Below, in pieces: positions 1,970 to 30,384 of a stretch of DNA of 33,210 nt. The notes under the pieces are model-generated. The model saw only the letters and a program-made list of their open reading frames with translations, did no database searches and was not told the origin of the DNA. The position numbers and the translations under genes were made by a program. Position 1 is the first letter of the stretch, and each line of letters starts with the position of its first letter. Source of the DNA: a virus; IMG/VR virus record IMGVR_UViG_3300021964_000270, positions 1-33,210 of that record, one strand, 5' to 3'.

Positions 1970-3928
1970 TCATTTTCTGCCAAGTAGCATGGCTGCTGAC
2001 CAAGTGGCATCCTCAACCACCCACCCGCTTGAGTCCTTTCTCAACAATCCGCTCGATTTCAGATTGGCGAGCGGTCCTTTATCCTCGATCCCGTATGCGT
2101 ATTTTTTGGCGGTCATGGGTTTGTGTTTAACATCGAAAACACTCCGGGCAAACGCGACCGATACATACGGGTGACCGCAAAATAAATCGCGCCCGGATTC
2201 GTGCCATAGACTCTCAAAAAACTTTTTGTTATTGACGATAGTGTGATCGACTTTTTCGATCGGCGTCCCCTCCTGGATCACGGCGCTCGATACCGGCTCG
2301 CCATCCTCATCAAACCACCCGTCAATTGCCTGGCTTTGCAGTTGCACAAAAACCGTTGGCGCCAGCTCGGCATCCTTTGACTTGCGTTGCACGATCTCGA
2401 TCGGTTTATCCTTTTTGCCGGGCACGATTGATATCTCGATATCGAGCGCACCACGCCAGGCGGATGATCCCCTGGCTCGATGCTGCGCTTCGTCGCTTAC
2501 GCCGGTGTGATGAACTAATAGCACGGTGCAATCAAAGTCGACCATCAAAGCATTGCACGCATCGAGCATGGTCTTGGCGTCCTGGGCGCTGTTCTCATCG
2601 CCTTGTAGGAATCGGTGCAGCGTATCGACCACAATCATCTTGGGGGTGTCTGGCAGTTGCCTCACGGCCTCGCGCACCCGGTGATAACCTTCCGGCGTGT
2701 TGAGATCACACCCGGTAGAACTGATCCACATATTGTCGATTTGTGCTTGGTGGAACTGCGACCATGCGGCGATCCTCGAGCGCAAACCATGGTGACCCTC
2801 ACCGGCCAGATACACCACTGAACCGCCGTGCACCTTATTGCCAAACCATTGATCCTTGCCGGTGGCGACGTGCAGACACCAGTCGAGAACGACGAAGGTC
2901 TTACCGCCCCCACTAGGCCCGTGCACCATCACCAGGGCGCGATCTTGTATGTGGTGCTTTACGATCCACGATATTGGTGCAGGGCGTGCGCAGTAATCGG
3001 ACGCCGGTACCAGCCAATCGGATTTGGGTGGCTCGAGCAGCGCGAGCAGATCGTGCCCTGCCTGGTGGAAATCGTTGGCGTCCATTCCGGGCATCGGTGG
3101 GATCACCATGGAGCCACCGAATTTGGCGATCGCCTGCTCGGCGTATGCCTTGCCCACCCCCGACTCGTCGTTGTCCGCCACGATAATGACGCCGGCGCCT
3201 TTGTGCTTTGCTGTAACGTGTTGAGTTACAGGCACCAGGTTGGACGCGCTGAATGCGACATATACCATCGCACCGGTGATTTCGTGAATGGTTGCGGCGG
3301 TGGCGAAACCCTCGGCGATATAGACCGTTTGACCAGGCTCACCGATTGACCAATAGCACCCCCCGGTTTTGCCCCCGGTATGGTATCGCTTTTCGCCATT
3401 GCGATCGATGTACTGAATACTGGTGAGCTCATCCTCGTAATACAGCGGCACCATGAGCCGGCCGTCTCCGGTAATTCGCACGCCGTGCGCCTGTACGCCC
3501 TTCCTGGTCAAATATTCGTGCTCGGGCGACGCAAGGCCCGCCTGGTCCCATATCGTTTGCACGGTGTTGGTGGCGACCTCCTGGCGCTTTTCTTTCTCCG
3601 CATCCCGTGCGGCCTTTGCCTCGGCCATTCGCCTGGTAACCGCCATATTCTCCGCAAGCGTGAGATCCCGATCGACATCAGCCCGGAATACGTGATCCAC
3701 GCCCAGCTTCCAGTCGCCAAACCGACCGGCGGGTATGTTGTCGCCATACGCCACATACCAGGATGTTTTCTTGCGCCCAAACCGGCGCAGCTTGCCATCG
3801 AGTACAACCGATTCCGGCGCCTCGAGCCCGGCGCTTTCAATCGCATCGATCAGTTGCTGCTCCGGTGGTAATGTCACCCGGCTGGGTGGTGTCCATGGTC
3901 CATTAAATATATTAGTTAGATCTGCCAT
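1970..3928 (-). CDS. Toprim primase - RepA-like (AAA_25) helicase fusion
   Basis: A 652-residue replication protein. Residues about 55-75 hold the G-x-FGDWKxG motif seen ahead of Toprim domains in TraC-like phage and plasmid primases. The Toprim domain shows EGFATA (206-211) and DNDESG (252-257), the metal-binding residues for primer synthesis. The second half is a hexameric RecA-fold helicase of the RepA/AAA_25 type: Walker A GPSGGGKT (337-344), Walker B MIVVDTL (about 431-437) and LLVHHTG (470-476). No N-terminal zinc finger is visible. It should prime and unwind at the fork. It is transcribed away from the recombination operon, with AAGGGG six bases before the ATG, and its 3' end abuts the repeat cluster. 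No DNA polymerase gene is present, so the phage probably uses the host replicase. Confidence 0.9.
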   Translation of the reverse strand: MADLTNIFNGPWTPPSRVTLPPEQQLIDAIESAGLEAPESVVLDGKLRRFGRKKTSWYVAYGDNIPAGRFGDWKLGVDHVFRADVDRDLTLAENMAVTRRMAEAKAARDAEKEKRQEVATNTVQTIWDQAGLASPEHEYLTRKGVQAHGVRITGDGRLMVPLYYEDELTSIQYIDRNGEKRYHTGGKTGGCYWSIGEPGQTVYIAEGFATAATIHEITGAMVYVAFSASNLVPVTQHVTAKHKGAGVIIVADNDESGVGKAYAEQAIAKFGGSMVIPPMPGMDANDFHQAGHDLLALLEPPKSDWLVPASDYCARPAPISWIVKHHIQDRALVMVHGPSGGGKTFVVLDWCLHVATGKDQWFGNKVHGGSVVYLAGEGHHGLRSRIAAWSQFHQAQIDNMWISSTGCDLNTPEGYHRVREAVRQLPDTPKMIVVDTLHRFLQGDENSAQDAKTMLDACNALMVDFDCTVLLVHHTGVSDEAQHRARGSSAWRGALDIEISIVPGKKDKPIEIVQRKSKDAELAPTVFVQLQSQAIDGWFDEDGEPVSSAVIQEGTPIEKVDHTIVNNKKFFESLWHESGRDLFCGHPYVSVAFARSVFDVKHKPMTAKKYAYGIEDKGPLANLKSSGLLRKDSSGWVVEDATWSAAMLLGRK

Positions 3929-24398: not shown

Positions 24399-24869
24399 TC
24401 CTTTCTTCCTTTAACTTAAACCAGGCGACCCACCCCATAAACTCGCGGATGTCCATTTGATTGATTTCGCCGACCGTCTTGCTTAATGTTTCCGCTAGAA
24501 AATACCGGAACTGCAAGTCCCGGTCGGCTTTTAGTTTCCCTCGACGTCGGCCTCGTCTGGATCACCGGAATTGATCTCGGACACAATGCGAGCCAGGACA
24601 TCGGGGTCCACCGATTTCATGAGCTCGAGTTTATCCAATTTCTTGAATACCGGTTTGCCTTCGCCATCAATCAAACGATGCACAATCGTCATCACCATGG
24701 CCTCGGCAGCCTTGCCTGCGTTGGCCAATTCCATGATCTCACCGAGAGCTTGCAAGCTAATACCTGGCCGAACATAGAGTTTGGAATCCCATTCTGGGAT
24801 ATCAATCTCTCGAGGTTCAGCCGTTAGCTTGGCTTTATAGTGGTTTTTCGCTTTCTCGAGTATAGACAT
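24376..24869 (-). CDS. gpGT-type tail assembly chaperone made by -1 frameshift
   Basis: If ribosomes slip at GGGAAAC (24540-24534), the 112-residue gpG-like protein gains 52 residues in the -1 frame, ending at TGA 24376. The extension begins LKADRDLQFRYFLAETLSKT and ends with MDIREFMGWVAWFKLKEER, the kind of 'EFxxWxAWFKLKEE' stretch that ends T domains of lambda-like chaperones. No start codon precedes it in that frame, so the frameshift is its only route. The fusion would bind the tail tube subunit through the T part and the tape measure through the G part. Confidence 0.8.
24531..24869 (-). CDS. gpG-like tail assembly chaperone
   Basis: A 112-residue protein with an N-terminal strand and a helical body: REIDIPEWDSKLYVRPGISL, then MELANAGKAAEAMVMTIVHR and KLDKLELMKSVDPDVLARIV, closing with an acidic DPDEADVEGN. 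This is the pattern of XkdN/gpG-like chaperones that coat the tape measure during assembly. ATG at 24869 lies one base after the tail-tube stop. The stop codon follows the slippery heptamer directly. Confidence 0.88.
   Translation of the reverse strand: MSILEKAKNHYKAKLTAEPREIDIPEWDSKLYVRPGISLQALGEIMELANAGKAAEAMVMTIVHRLIDGEGKPVFKKLDKLELMKSVDPDVLARIVSEINSGDPDEADVEGN
24534..24540 (-). promoter_or_regulatory. -1 frameshift slippery heptamer GGGAAAC
   Basis: On the minus strand G GGA AAC is read in the zero frame as GAG GGA AAC, followed at once by TAA. It fits X XXY YYZ exactly and is one base from lambda's GGGAAAG. Both tRNAs can re-pair on GGG AAA. The location at the gpG end and the conserved look of the -1 extension agree. 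Confidence 0.8.
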
Positions 24870-26462: not shown

Positions 26463-28916
26463 TTAGCTGCCGCCGTCGTTGCCAAGGCAGAATGCAGTCG
26501 CGTGACGTACAGCGACGTCGCATGATTGCAGTGCCACAACACGTACAGTGCCGCTAGTGCTCGCAGTGTAAGGATCGACCACGATGTCCAGGCCACCGAA
26601 CATACCAACCAAAAGCTGGCTGAAGTCGCCGAAGTACAGATCACCAGAGGCAACCTGGTTCGATACGATCGTTCGGAATCCGTTCATTGTGCCGCCGGGC
26701 TCAACTACGAACTGCGCGGTGTTGCTGGCCTTCTCGACCGACTTCAATGCACCGTACATAGTCGCGTTTGAGATATAGGAACCACCGTTGCCAAGAGCAT
26801 TGTCTTCGCGAACCTTGGTTTCCATATCAACTATTTGGGCAAACGTCGGGATCAAGTCAGGAGCGGTGCCGAAGTCAACCGTGTTGATTCCTGAAGTGTT
26901 CTTGATACCGGTGGGCTGGCCAGAAGAGCCAGATCCTGCGAGTGCACCCAAGTCGATCGCCAAAGCGATTGCCTGAGCCAGATCGTCACGGATCAATGCT
27001 TCGATATCCAAAGAACTTTGGATAAGTAGCTGGCGTGAACAATCAGTGAAAGCGCCCAAAGTTTTGGGAGTCATTGACACTGAGCCGACAGTCATTTCGG
27101 ATTCAGACGATGCACCACCCTCGGTAGCAATCCAAGCAGCGGCAGCAGCAGCAGTCTTCTTGGGGATTTTTACATCGCCAGATAGACCATTCAGCATACG
27201 CGCGCCGGCTTGCATTACGCTTGAAGCGTTGCGAAGCACGTCGATGAAATCACCACCACGGAAGTCGTCAGTGAACAATGCAGACTCGTCGGCGCTGTTC
27301 AGGTCACGCTTCCAGTTGCGCATTACCTCGGCAGGCAAAAGGATGCCCTGGGCTGTGCGACCGTATGCGTCAGCGGCAGCGCGCGAGCATTCGAATTCGA
27401 AAGCAGCGGCTTCTTGAGCGCGTCGGTCAGTTGGGTTTGCAAGAGCGTGAATCGCGCGAAGCAAGGAGAAGCGCTTGACTTCTTTTTGAGTCATGCCGAT
27501 TTCTTTCTCTTCAAGCGCGCGCTGTGAACCGATAAGATCGAGCAATTCGCCACGGAATTCTTCGATGCTGCGGCCTTCAGCAATGGCTTTCTGAGCGAGA
27601 TCGCTCTTGTTATGACGGGCGCCAAGCTCAACAATTTGAGCGGCGTTGCGTTGTGCGGCTTTGCGGGCTTCTGCCTCGACTGCCGCGATATCAATAGATT
27701 CTGACATGATAGATTCCTCTTTGAAGTCAGTTGTAATCACGGGTTCGTTTGAAACCTCGCCAGACCGCCCCACGCCGACTGTCACATCTGCGGGAATTGA
27801 TACAAGCGATGCCTCCATCGGGCGCCAGGATTTAGCGACGTATGTCTCCTTATCCTTGCGCTCGAGTTTGTTGATCGCGTAACCGACCGAGATATTCGCC
27901 CGGATTCCGTCGACCACATCGGTGAAAGCCTCTTGGGCGAGCGCGCCTTTTCCAAAGCGCACCGTCGCGCGGAGTCGCCGCGCCGAGCCATCGAGCTCCA
28001 CTGATTCGATCACGCCGATTTGCTTTTCTGGATCGTGATCCAAAAGCAGCGGGGCGCGTCCGCTTGCGAGAAACGACAAATCAATCGCCTCGCTCGAGTG
28101 TTCCAATACTTCCATCCCGAATGATCGTTGCACCGGCTCCTCGGAGCTGATCGCAATGCGGACCTTCCGGGTCTCTTCGTCGATTGTCTTGGCCTCGAGC
28201 TCCATCGCCCGGTGCTCGATATCCGTCACCGACAGTCGATTCGCCTGCGAATCATCCTCGATCGACTCGTCGTGCGCTTCGATCATTTTTTCCTCGATAT
28301 CACTCATCTTTCTCTCCTCGATAGCCGGCTCGAACTTGATCGGCTCGTAACCGTTATCATTTAACCATTGCTGCGCTGCTTCAACGGTCCACTTTGTTTT
28401 GTCGAATCGAATCGACTGGATCTCACTGGCACCATCCAGCAGGCCCAGGATAATGTGAATCCCGTCGCCCAGCTCGTCATTCATTCGCCGAAAGCCCTGG
28501 TATTTCTCCGGGTCCGTTATCCTGGCGGCGTGCTCGTTTGGGTATGGTCTCATATCATCCATTCGATCAGCCTCGTCTAATGAATTGAGACGTTCGACGA
28601 TTCGATTTGCCCAAGATTGACCGACATCCCCGCCCCAGAGCGCCCAGGCGATTCGCCCTGCGCTTGGGTAGCCTTCCTCGCCAGGTCGGAATCCTTCCGC
28701 CTTTTTGTCAACCTCATGTCGAGCAAAATAAGAATACATACGCCGCACAGTATCAATGCCAAGCTCGCGACGGTTACTAATGTCACGAGCACGCGCGACA
28801 CCCACCTCAGTGCCGCCGCGACCATATTCTTCGCGCCATTCCAGGCCTCGAGCAGCCTCCTCCGCCATAGATTCGCTTGGCTTTGTGTCAATTTCTGCTC
28901 CTTTATACGTTGCCAT
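26463..28916 (-). CDS. Fused head protein: accessory domain - S78 prohead protease - HK97-fold major capsid protein
   Basis: One open frame of 817 residues carries three units. Residues 1-203: a phage head domain with KKAEGFRPGEEGYPSAGRIA, WALWGGDVGQSWANRIVERL and, near 170-195, FDKTKWTVEAAQQWLNDNGY. Residues 204-403: an HK97-type S78 protease (GMEVLEHSSEAIDLSFLASG, His294 in LLDHD, Ser343 in NISVGY). Residues 404-817: a capsid protein with a helical delta-like part (about 404-480) and the HK97 fold (GILLPAEVMRNWKRDL... DFIDVLRNASSVMQAGARML, AWIATEGG, GLDIVVDPYTASTSGTVRVV). The units are separate genes in most phages. ATG codons at residues 204 and 404 each have a good Shine-Dalgarno box. The start at 28916 has GAGGT upstream and overlaps the portal gene by 14 nt. 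Confidence 0.9.
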   Translation of the reverse strand: MATYKGAEIDTKPSESMAEEAARGLEWREEYGRGGTEVGVARARDISNRRELGIDTVRRMYSYFARHEVDKKAEGFRPGEEGYPSAGRIAWALWGGDVGQSWANRIVERLNSLDEADRMDDMRPYPNEHAARITDPEKYQGFRRMNDELGDGIHIILGLLDGASEIQSIRFDKTKWTVEAAQQWLNDNGYEPIKFEPAIEERKMSDIEEKMIEAHDESIEDDSQANRLSVTDIEHRAMELEAKTIDEETRKVRIAISSEEPVQRSFGMEVLEHSSEAIDLSFLASGRAPLLLDHDPEKQIGVIESVELDGSARRLRATVRFGKGALAQEAFTDVVDGIRANISVGYAINKLERKDKETYVAKSWRPMEASLVSIPADVTVGVGRSGEVSNEPVITTDFKEESIMSESIDIAAVEAEARKAAQRNAAQIVELGARHNKSDLAQKAIAEGRSIEEFRGELLDLIGSQRALEEKEIGMTQKEVKRFSLLRAIHALANPTDRRAQEAAAFEFECSRAAADAYGRTAQGILLPAEVMRNWKRDLNSADESALFTDDFRGGDFIDVLRNASSVMQAGARMLNGLSGDVKIPKKTAAAAAAWIATEGGASSESEMTVGSVSMTPKTLGAFTDCSRQLLIQSSLDIEALIRDDLAQAIALAIDLGALAGSGSSGQPTGIKNTSGINTVDFGTAPDLIPTFAQIVDMETKVREDNALGNGGSYISNATMYGALKSVEKASNTAQFVVEPGGTMNGFRTIVSNQVASGDLYFGDFSQLLVGMFGGLDIVVDPYTASTSGTVRVVALQSCDVAVRHATAFCLGNDGGS
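27705..27720 (-). promoter_or_regulatory. Internal ribosome-binding site and ATG for the capsid unit
   Basis: Inside the fused gene, minus-strand AAAGAGGAATCTATCATG gives an AGAGGA box with seven bases to an in-frame ATG (residue 404, MSESIDI). This is exactly the border between protease and capsid. It would allow a separate 414-residue capsid protein. Confidence 0.6.
28305..28319 (-). promoter_or_regulatory. Internal ribosome-binding site and ATG for the protease unit
   Basis: Minus-strand GAGGAGAGAAAGATG gives AGGAG with about six bases to an in-frame ATG (residue 204, MSDIEEK). It lies at the border of the accessory domain and the protease, so translation could start here too. Confidence 0.6.
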
Positions 28917-30384
28917 CGGTCGCCACCTCGGGAATCACCGGCATTTGTTGTGCTGCGTATGGCTCTAATGCGTATTTTACACCAAATTGATCCATCAGTG
29001 CTTTATCGCGTTGAATTTGTGCCAGCAGCTCCTCGGTGTCCTTGCCATATTGGCTCGCCACATCTTGGAGCGATAATATACCGGCCTTCATTCCATTGAT
29101 CGCTGCATTCATTTCCTTCTGGGGATCGACCCATGACCAGGCTCGACCACGGAATTCGGCAGCATCCGCAAACTTCTGATATTGGCGCAGCGGTATGCCA
29201 AACGTGCCCATCTCCATGGCCGACTCGAGCCAGGACTCGAACACCGGGCGCACGAAGTGATCAATCATAAACCCTTGCAGGTTTTTGTAATGATCGCGCT
29301 CCTCGAGAGCACCCTGGCGAATGCTCGAGTAGGATGTCGCCTCGAGGTCGTTGGCCAATGACGTATACGATACATTGAGCGCCGACGCGATACCCTTGAG
29401 CACCGACTTGTGAAATACGTCAAACTCATTGTTCGGATATGCCGGGTCGAAGGTCTTGAAATCAATCCCGGTCGGGAGCTGGTGGAATGTGCCAGGCTCG
29501 GCCGAAATTATCGGCACATTGCCATCGAGATCATCCGCGACAAATCCATCGCCGGTCGGGCTGGTAAAGAAACCCATTTTTGAGGCACCCATTCTGGCCG
29601 CCACAATGCTCGCCTCGCGAAAACCATCGAGCTGCTTGAGCGCTGATATTGCCGATGCAGTCCACGGCTCTCCGCGCGTTTGACCGGCCCTGGTGGGCAT
29701 GTAAATATGGATTACTCTATCGGCCGGCACCCGGATGTGTTTTGGGCTGCGCGTTTGACTTGTGAAATCATAGTCGCCAGGGTGGTATGTGAGTAGGTGA
29801 TAAGCCACCGGGCGACGAAACCGATCCAACTCCACACCCATTCGCACCTGGTTGCCATTTTTGAGTGTTTCGGATTTCTCCTCATCCACCTGGTCAGGCT
29901 CGATAAACTCGAGCGCGAATGAATCTTTAAACGATGCGTTTCGATGTTTAATGATAAACACCTCGCCATCGCGCGCCAGGCCTTCGATCACCATTTTCTG
30001 CGCGTCGACCCAAGACATCTTGCCATCAACCGTGCAGCCACCCTTGCGGCCCCATGATTTGAAGGCATTTTCAATCGCCTGGTTGCCGATTTGGTCTAAA
30101 TCGCCGGTCGTATTAGTGGCTTTTACCTGCAATCCGAAGCCTTTTTCGCCGACCACATTGGTCTTCAGCAGTGTCAAATATCGCTTTGTGTACTCGTTGT
30201 TTCGGGCTAAGTCACGCGATCTGGCGCGAATTCGACTGATAACCGGGTACAGTTCAGAGTCGGCTGAGCGCTCCGACTCTTTAAAATCAGAAAAAAGGCG
30301 CGACGTATTCGCCGCCTGGTATGATCTTTTGAATACTTTAGGCTCGGCTTTTGGTTTCGGCTTTAAAAAGTCAAAAATCGCCAT
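28903..30384 (-). CDS. Portal protein (lambda gpB family)
   Basis: A 493-residue portal of the phage_portal_2 type: RARSRDLARNNEYTKRYLTL, KTNVVGEKGFGLQVKA, WGRKGGCTVDGKMSWVDAQK and RDGEVFIIKHRN, then FREASIVAARMGASKMGFFT and YSSIRQGALEERDHYK. It forms the dodecameric ring at the head vertex through which DNA enters. Unlike lambda gpB, no ClpP-type gpC gene follows; here the protease is of the HK97 type in the next gene, so the head set is mixed. It starts three bases after the gpW-like gene with GAGG upstream. Confidence 0.93.
   Translation of the reverse strand: MAIFDFLKPKPKAEPKVFKRSYQAANTSRLFSDFKESERSADSELYPVISRIRARSRDLARNNEYTKRYLTLLKTNVVGEKGFGLQVKATNTTGDLDQIGNQAIENAFKSWGRKGGCTVDGKMSWVDAQKMVIEGLARDGEVFIIKHRNASFKDSFALEFIEPDQVDEEKSETLKNGNQVRMGVELDRFRRPVAYHLLTYHPGDYDFTSQTRSPKHIRVPADRVIHIYMPTRAGQTRGEPWTASAISALKQLDGFREASIVAARMGASKMGFFTSPTGDGFVADDLDGNVPIISAEPGTFHQLPTGIDFKTFDPAYPNNEFDVFHKSVLKGIASALNVSYTSLANDLEATSYSSIRQGALEERDHYKNLQGFMIDHFVRPVFESWLESAMEMGTFGIPLRQYQKFADAAEFRGRAWSWVDPQKEMNAAINGMKAGILSLQDVASQYGKDTEELLAQIQRDKALMDQFGVKYALEPYAAQQMPVIPEVATDGNV

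Follow-up and report, generated by a model that had tools for sequence, protein, structure and literature searches.

Organization of the fused gene

The 33,210-nt stretch of marine phage DNA analysed here (the window) carries on its minus strand, between positions 26463 and 28916, a frame of 817 codons that opens with ATG and closes with TAA, no stop codon intervening. It is flanked by a portal gene of the lambda type (28903-30384) and by small head-completion genes, and a gpA-type terminase gene lies upstream of it. The initial annotation had described this frame as joining an accessory domain, an S78 protease and a capsid protein, and the domain matches bear this description out. Its parts are the following:

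26463..28916 (-), fused ORF, 817 aa: accessory domain, S78 protease, delta-like segment and HK97-type major capsid protein (MCP)
28308..28916 (-), N-terminal accessory domain, residues 1-203: head-associated mobile domain (phrog_2859, E 4e-26; AlphaFold2 mean pLDDT 89)
28191..28316 (-), disordered linker 1, residues 201-242 (AlphaFold2 pLDDT <50)
27768..28190 (-), S78 prohead protease domain, residues 243-383 (PF04586, E 8e-5 with the domain alone)
28035..28037 (-), His294, probable catalytic histidine, invariant in 41 relatives
27888..27890 (-), Ser343, probable catalytic serine, invariant in 41 relatives
27690..27767 (-), disordered hypervariable linker 2, residues 384-409 (AlphaFold2 pLDDT <50; alignment)
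27288..27707 (-), helical delta-like scaffold segment, residues 404 to about 543 (AlphaFold2 secondary structure)
26478..27278 (-), HK97-fold shell domain, residues about 547-813 (PF05065; PDB 8gta by sequence and fold)

The protein belongs to the protease-MCP fusion family phrog_617, whose profile is matched from position 10 to 622 of 626 by residues 235-813 (E 4e-147). Against the NCBIfam model for prohead protease/MCP fusions (NF045541) it scores 148.9 bits, with residues 245-495 only being aligned, and because this lies below the curated cut-off of 525 the ORF is not filed as NF045541. The Peptidase_S78 model gives 23.3 bits for the domain alone, above the gathering threshold of 21, and 19.6 bits, just under that threshold, in the whole protein; the catalytic roles of His294 and Ser343 are those we presume from knowledge of the S78 family. 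Uncultured phages and haloviruses have homologues of the accessory domain in their head proteins, among them prohead protease and portal, and a fold search with this domain against the PDB gave no significant match. The capsid part matches the Phage_capsid domain (PF05065) with E 1e-44 and, in fold searches, the R4C capsid (8gta, E 4e-18) and HK97 proheads (E 1e-10 to 1e-11), which places it among the HK97-fold proteins. The solved R4C capsid chain begins downstream of the delta-like segment. A search of the defence library returned no match.

An AlphaFold2 model built on an alignment of 25 sequences from the window and viral contigs predicts well-folded domains and two long stretches of low confidence, residues 201-242 and 384-409. 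In this model M204 stands at the start of linker 1 and M404 near the end of linker 2, directly before a helix at residue 410, and a product initiated at either of these methionines, lying as they do in or at the edge of disordered linkers, would therefore begin at a domain border.

Candidate internal start codons in the window

Each of the two borders holds an in-frame ATG preceded by a Shine-Dalgarno (SD) box, precisely as had been reported in the initial annotation:

28308..28319 (-), SD box GAGGAGAGAAAG preceding M204: duplex -8.9 kcal/mol, the best of the 21 later Met codons
28305..28307 (-), ATG of M204, proposed internal start 1: 614-aa protease-MCP product, 65.6 kDa
27708..27722 (-), SD box AAAGAGGAATCTATC preceding M404: duplex -6.0 kcal/mol, conserved nucleotide motif
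27705..27707 (-), ATG of M404, proposed internal start 2: 414-aa MCP precursor, 43.6 kDa

When the 21 Met codons after M1 are ranked by the strength of their anti-SD duplex, M204 comes first and M404 third, and both values fall inside the range found for the real gene starts of the window (about -2 to -12); the duplex of M1 itself reaches -10.4 kcal/mol.

Conservation of the protease/capsid border

At the aligned position of M404 an ATG is present in 97 of 100 dereplicated relatives, and the length and residues of the linker around it vary widely among them. The mean SD energy is -6.3 kcal/mol for these 97 ATGs as compared with -2.2 for 1927 other Met codons. The first viral scan had been seeded in part with peptides containing both border methionines, a source of selection bias, and the statistics were therefore redone on a set independent of the borders, composed of loci recovered with MCP-only or N-domain-only queries and of annotated phages (67 dereplicated ORFs). 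All 67 linkers in this unselected set contain an ATG, against 40.9 expected from the Met content, and the mean border SD, taking the best Met in linkers with two, is -6.5 kcal/mol, the other Met codons averaging -2.2. Glutamate within the four codons upstream of the border ATG is written GAG 42 times and GAA 15 times, the counts elsewhere being 2074 and 2794; in the SD zone 42 GAG codons are thus seen where 25 are expected (stratified odds ratio of 3.6).

The last linker Met was also scored, whatever its SD, in 83 fusions that include 15 distant phages. An SD core precedes it in 63 of the 83, as opposed to 14% of 1620 other Met codons, mostly at a distance of 5-8 nt from the ATG and in all three codon phases (42/11/10). 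The region of the border start is also less paired than that around other methionines (mean rank 0.74). The P values attached to the border comparisons ignore the relatedness of the sequences and hence overstate their independence.

The 15 distant fusions, from enterobacterial, Pseudomonas, Xanthomonas, Vibrio, Halomonas, Rhodobacter and Burkholderia phages and with VP882, R4C and phiHAP-1 among them, have all kept the linker ATG, which heads differing N-terminal segments in them. The SD is clear (duplex -4.5 or stronger) in 11 of these and weak in MQ-4, Alexa, FoX2 and Mano, and the combination of SD and ATG persists among MCPs down to about 31% identity. Mapped on a tree of 81 MCPs, the presence of the SD extends across the tree and requires six changes only, its absence being confined mainly to one clade of cyanophages and open-ocean relatives. 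Members of this clade keep the linker ATG, have no SD at either border and show, in part, weak SDs at the starts of neighbouring genes as well; initiation may there be independent of the SD or may have been lost, and the use of the internal start is uncertain. The SD-less clade comprises, among our loci, L157, L165, L193, L195, L188, L005, L006 and L009.

Conservation of the accessory/protease border

A complete N-domain is present in 34 relatives; in 28 of these an ATG lies no more than a few residues from the M204 position, and in the other six there is none nearby. The mean SD energy at this border is -4.4 kcal/mol against -2.3, and an SD of -5 or stronger is found in 57% at the border compared with 17% of other methionines. 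Two loci devoid of the N-domain, L069 and L127, have as their best SD-preceded start the equivalent of the M204 ATG. In L069 a remnant of the tail of the N-domain, VIKFKIEIEEKPM, stands directly before this ATG, following the portal gene and an unrelated stretch, and the arrangement of this locus suggests that the N-domain was lost in nature and that the internal start then took over. The persistence of the internal boxes among relatives, which the initial annotation had expected of functional starts, is thus found at the protease/capsid border, is less uniform at the accessory/protease border and breaks down in the cyanophage clade, and a nested start at residue 204 is supported more weakly than the one at 404.

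Many relatives (L102, L157, L193, L027 and others) have an extra module inserted between the accessory domain and the protease, either of the form VGDFVSW..GG.A.G.I..I..DG.I.VP, resembling the TUDOR-like DUF2945 type, or a segment of the RSGKHDTDLLP type; the N-terminal part is therefore modular. The L008 locus (CRP-823, 3159-3199) was considered as a natural split at this border and was discarded, its frame break sitting inside the N-region instead. The record of L008 annotates two 'major capsid protein' genes, and the break could reflect either a mistake in sequencing or a genuine split.

An independent case in ClpP-type fusions

Pseudomonas phage F10, of the MD8 group, encodes a ClpP-type protease, a scaffold and an MCP as one fusion, and the ATG at its protease border (M220) is found in all 16 sequences compared, that is F10 and 15 dereplicated relatives, with SD values of -5.4 to -8.3, the neighbouring M214 being neither conserved nor preceded by an SD. 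This site occupies the same place as the start of lambda's Nu3 within C. The F10/MD8 genes resemble the gene of the window in having protease, scaffold and MCP in one ORF and in conserving, at the protease border, an ATG with an SD before it; they differ from it in that the protease fold is unrelated, the start precedes the scaffold region and the scaffold is longer. Gene 5 of MD8 has been described as one gene for protease, scaffold and MCP, lambda's overlapping C and Nu3 being cited in that work (PMC8508860). The F10 gp5 gene corresponds to L240:4387-6468 in our collection and its relatives to L241-L320.

A model of nested translation and its alternatives

We consider it likely that ribosomes enter this late gene at as many as three starts in the same frame, so that the short form would supply most shell subunits and the longer forms would tether a minority of protease. 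Initiation at M1 would give the 817-aa accessory-protease-MCP protein, at M204 the 614-aa protease-MCP protein and at M404 the 414-aa MCP precursor, consisting of the delta-like scaffold segment and the shell domain. The M404 product would build most of the shell, and the rarer longer forms, sharing an identical MCP end, would co-assemble with it, so that protease and accessory domain would enter the prohead. The protease would then cut the linkers and the delta segment, leading to its own release and to the maturation of the shell. We infer ribosome initiation at the internal ATGs, the ratio of the products and the proteolytic steps from what can be read in the DNA directly, namely the frame, its domains, the ATGs, the SD boxes, their placement in disordered linkers and their conservation.

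The fact that the hidden start at the capsid border is kept in all distant relatives, mostly with an SD, makes it very probable that the gene also yields free capsid protein, in the excess needed by the shell. The supply of capsid subunits at the right ratio by the 414-residue form, put forward in the initial annotation, is plausible. The role of internal scaffold suggested there for the longer forms is less likely, given that the 414-residue form has a delta-like segment of its own (residues 404 to about 543), as in HK97; the longer forms would more likely serve therefore to deliver the protease, together with the accessory domain, into the prohead.

The main competitor of nested translation is a single polyprotein, made in full length only and divided by S78 self-cleavage into parts of equal amount, the internal ATGs and SDs being relics. 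Related fusions have been presented in the literature in this way, the Murka MCP as one 684-aa propeptide (PMC10892653) and MD8 gene 5 as the source of three proteins (PMC8508860), and since the protease residues are conserved, cleavage surely occurs. Relic boxes would however be expected to decay, yet SD and ATG have lasted across MCPs with identities down to about 31%, the SD occurring in all codon phases and with a synonymous bias, inside a linker that is otherwise free to change. Space inside the prohead is a further difficulty. The R4C capsid is a T=7 shell of 415 MCPs (PMC10276861), and 415 copies of residues 1-543 amount to 25 MDa; if the interior is assumed to have a radius of 22-18 nm, they would occupy about 0.7-1.25 of it, as opposed to 0.17-0.32 for the delta-like segment alone under the same assumption. 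With the radius so assumed, a T=7 prohead holding 415 full N-terminal parts looks sterically hard, and the packing estimate agrees with the mechanism that we propose. Mature capsid structures such as that of R4C (PMC10276861) fit the internal-start and the polyprotein models alike and cannot tell between them, since the N-terminal part is lost under both. Taking these points together, we judge the polyprotein unlikely.

Still less probable, to a degree that makes it a minor concern, is that the border Met and its acidic neighbours are kept for reasons of the protein, for example as a cleavage site, the likeness to an SD arising from Lys-Glu codons. Many borders do read K-E-x-M, and GAG and AAG codons are SD-like. 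The residues preceding the Met nevertheless differ among relatives (EESI, QRSDP, NGEPK, IRGAE, SEDA), the SD occurs in all three codon phases, there is a 3.6-fold preference for GAG over GAA and, in distant fusions, the ATG heads different N-terminal segments.

Age of the fusion

Searches with tblastn recovered the fusion from phages of many different genera, with protease and MCP always in one frame, including seven roseophages, the cyanophages S-CBS1/3 and S-LBS1 and the fifteen distant phages examined in detail. The unselected set contributed 124 ORFs or loci with all three parts and 22 with protease and MCP, the partial cases being contig ends. The initial annotation had proposed to look among homologous phages for separate genes, and no relative with protease and MCP split was found, either among the tblastn relatives or among the unselected viral contigs. 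Judging from these genomes, protease and MCP were already joined in the ancestor of the whole family. A recent joining of three genes through the loss of two stop codons, which the initial annotation had offered beside deliberate nested translation and to which the separate protease and MCP genes of HK97-like phages lend some appeal, is therefore rejected as hardly credible, every examined relative being fused. Of that pair of readings it is nested translation that gains from the comparative evidence, strongly at residue 404 and less so at 204.

Relation to known systems

The fusions of the phrog_617/NF045541 type (VP882, phiHAP-1, Murka, R4C and S-CBS1/3) likewise combine an S78 protease with an HK97 MCP in a single frame that follows the portal gene, as in the window. 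They are treated as one polypeptide, and the records examined annotate no internal start even though the ATG is present. Unlike the VP882/Murka/R4C-type fusions, the window and many of its marine relatives add the N-terminal accessory domain. The roseophage paper does not mention the protease (PMC12629253), the text of the R4C capsid paper does not discuss it (PMC10276861), and among open-licence papers we came across none that puts forward an internal MCP start.

The fused protein shares with gp4 and gp5 of HK97 the S78 protease, the delta-domain type of scaffold and the HK97 fold of the MCP, but in HK97 these are separate genes with stop codons, whereas here they lie in one open frame. A parallel to the proposed expression is offered by lambda C/Nu3, in which a protease is fused to an assembly protein and an internal in-frame start at the protease border gives a shorter product in excess; a conserved, in-frame, SD-preceded ATG at the protease border is what we find in the present family too. 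The difference is that the nested product of lambda is the scaffold, with the MCP encoded by a separate gene, while in the window it would be the MCP with a built-in delta-like scaffold. The I and Z genes of Mu are nested in frame in the manner of lambda C/Nu3. In herpesviruses UL26 is a protease-scaffold fusion and UL26.5 a nested 3' product without the protease, made in excess; that system differs in that a nested transcript is used and in that the nested product is the scaffold and not the MCP. The parts, and nested starts as such, are hence already known, and it is a conserved nested MCP start inside a protease fusion that appears to be new.

We lean, with less assurance than for the gene of the window itself, to the general view that such fusions are not single polyproteins. 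A conserved hidden start in at least the unrelated S78 and ClpP-like types would make the MCP separately, the strength of initiation would set the ratio of shell subunits to tethered protease, and a second hidden start in the marine branch would add a third tier (accessory-protease-MCP, beside protease-MCP and MCP). Protease-MCP fusions present a puzzle in that a shell needs hundreds of capsid subunits and few proteases, which a conserved internal start, if true, would solve. The N-terminus that databases state in their 'fusion MCP' entries would in that case be wrong for the main capsid product, and the device known from lambda C/Nu3 would extend from scaffold to MCP in two unrelated types of protease.

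Another gene of the window, at 24531-24869 on the minus strand, is of the tail assembly chaperone type and ends in GGGAAACTAA (24531-24540). The GGGAAAC right before its stop codon resembles a -1 slippery site by which ribosomes could pass, as in gpG/gpGT, to an overlapping frame located ahead of a tape-measure-like gene.
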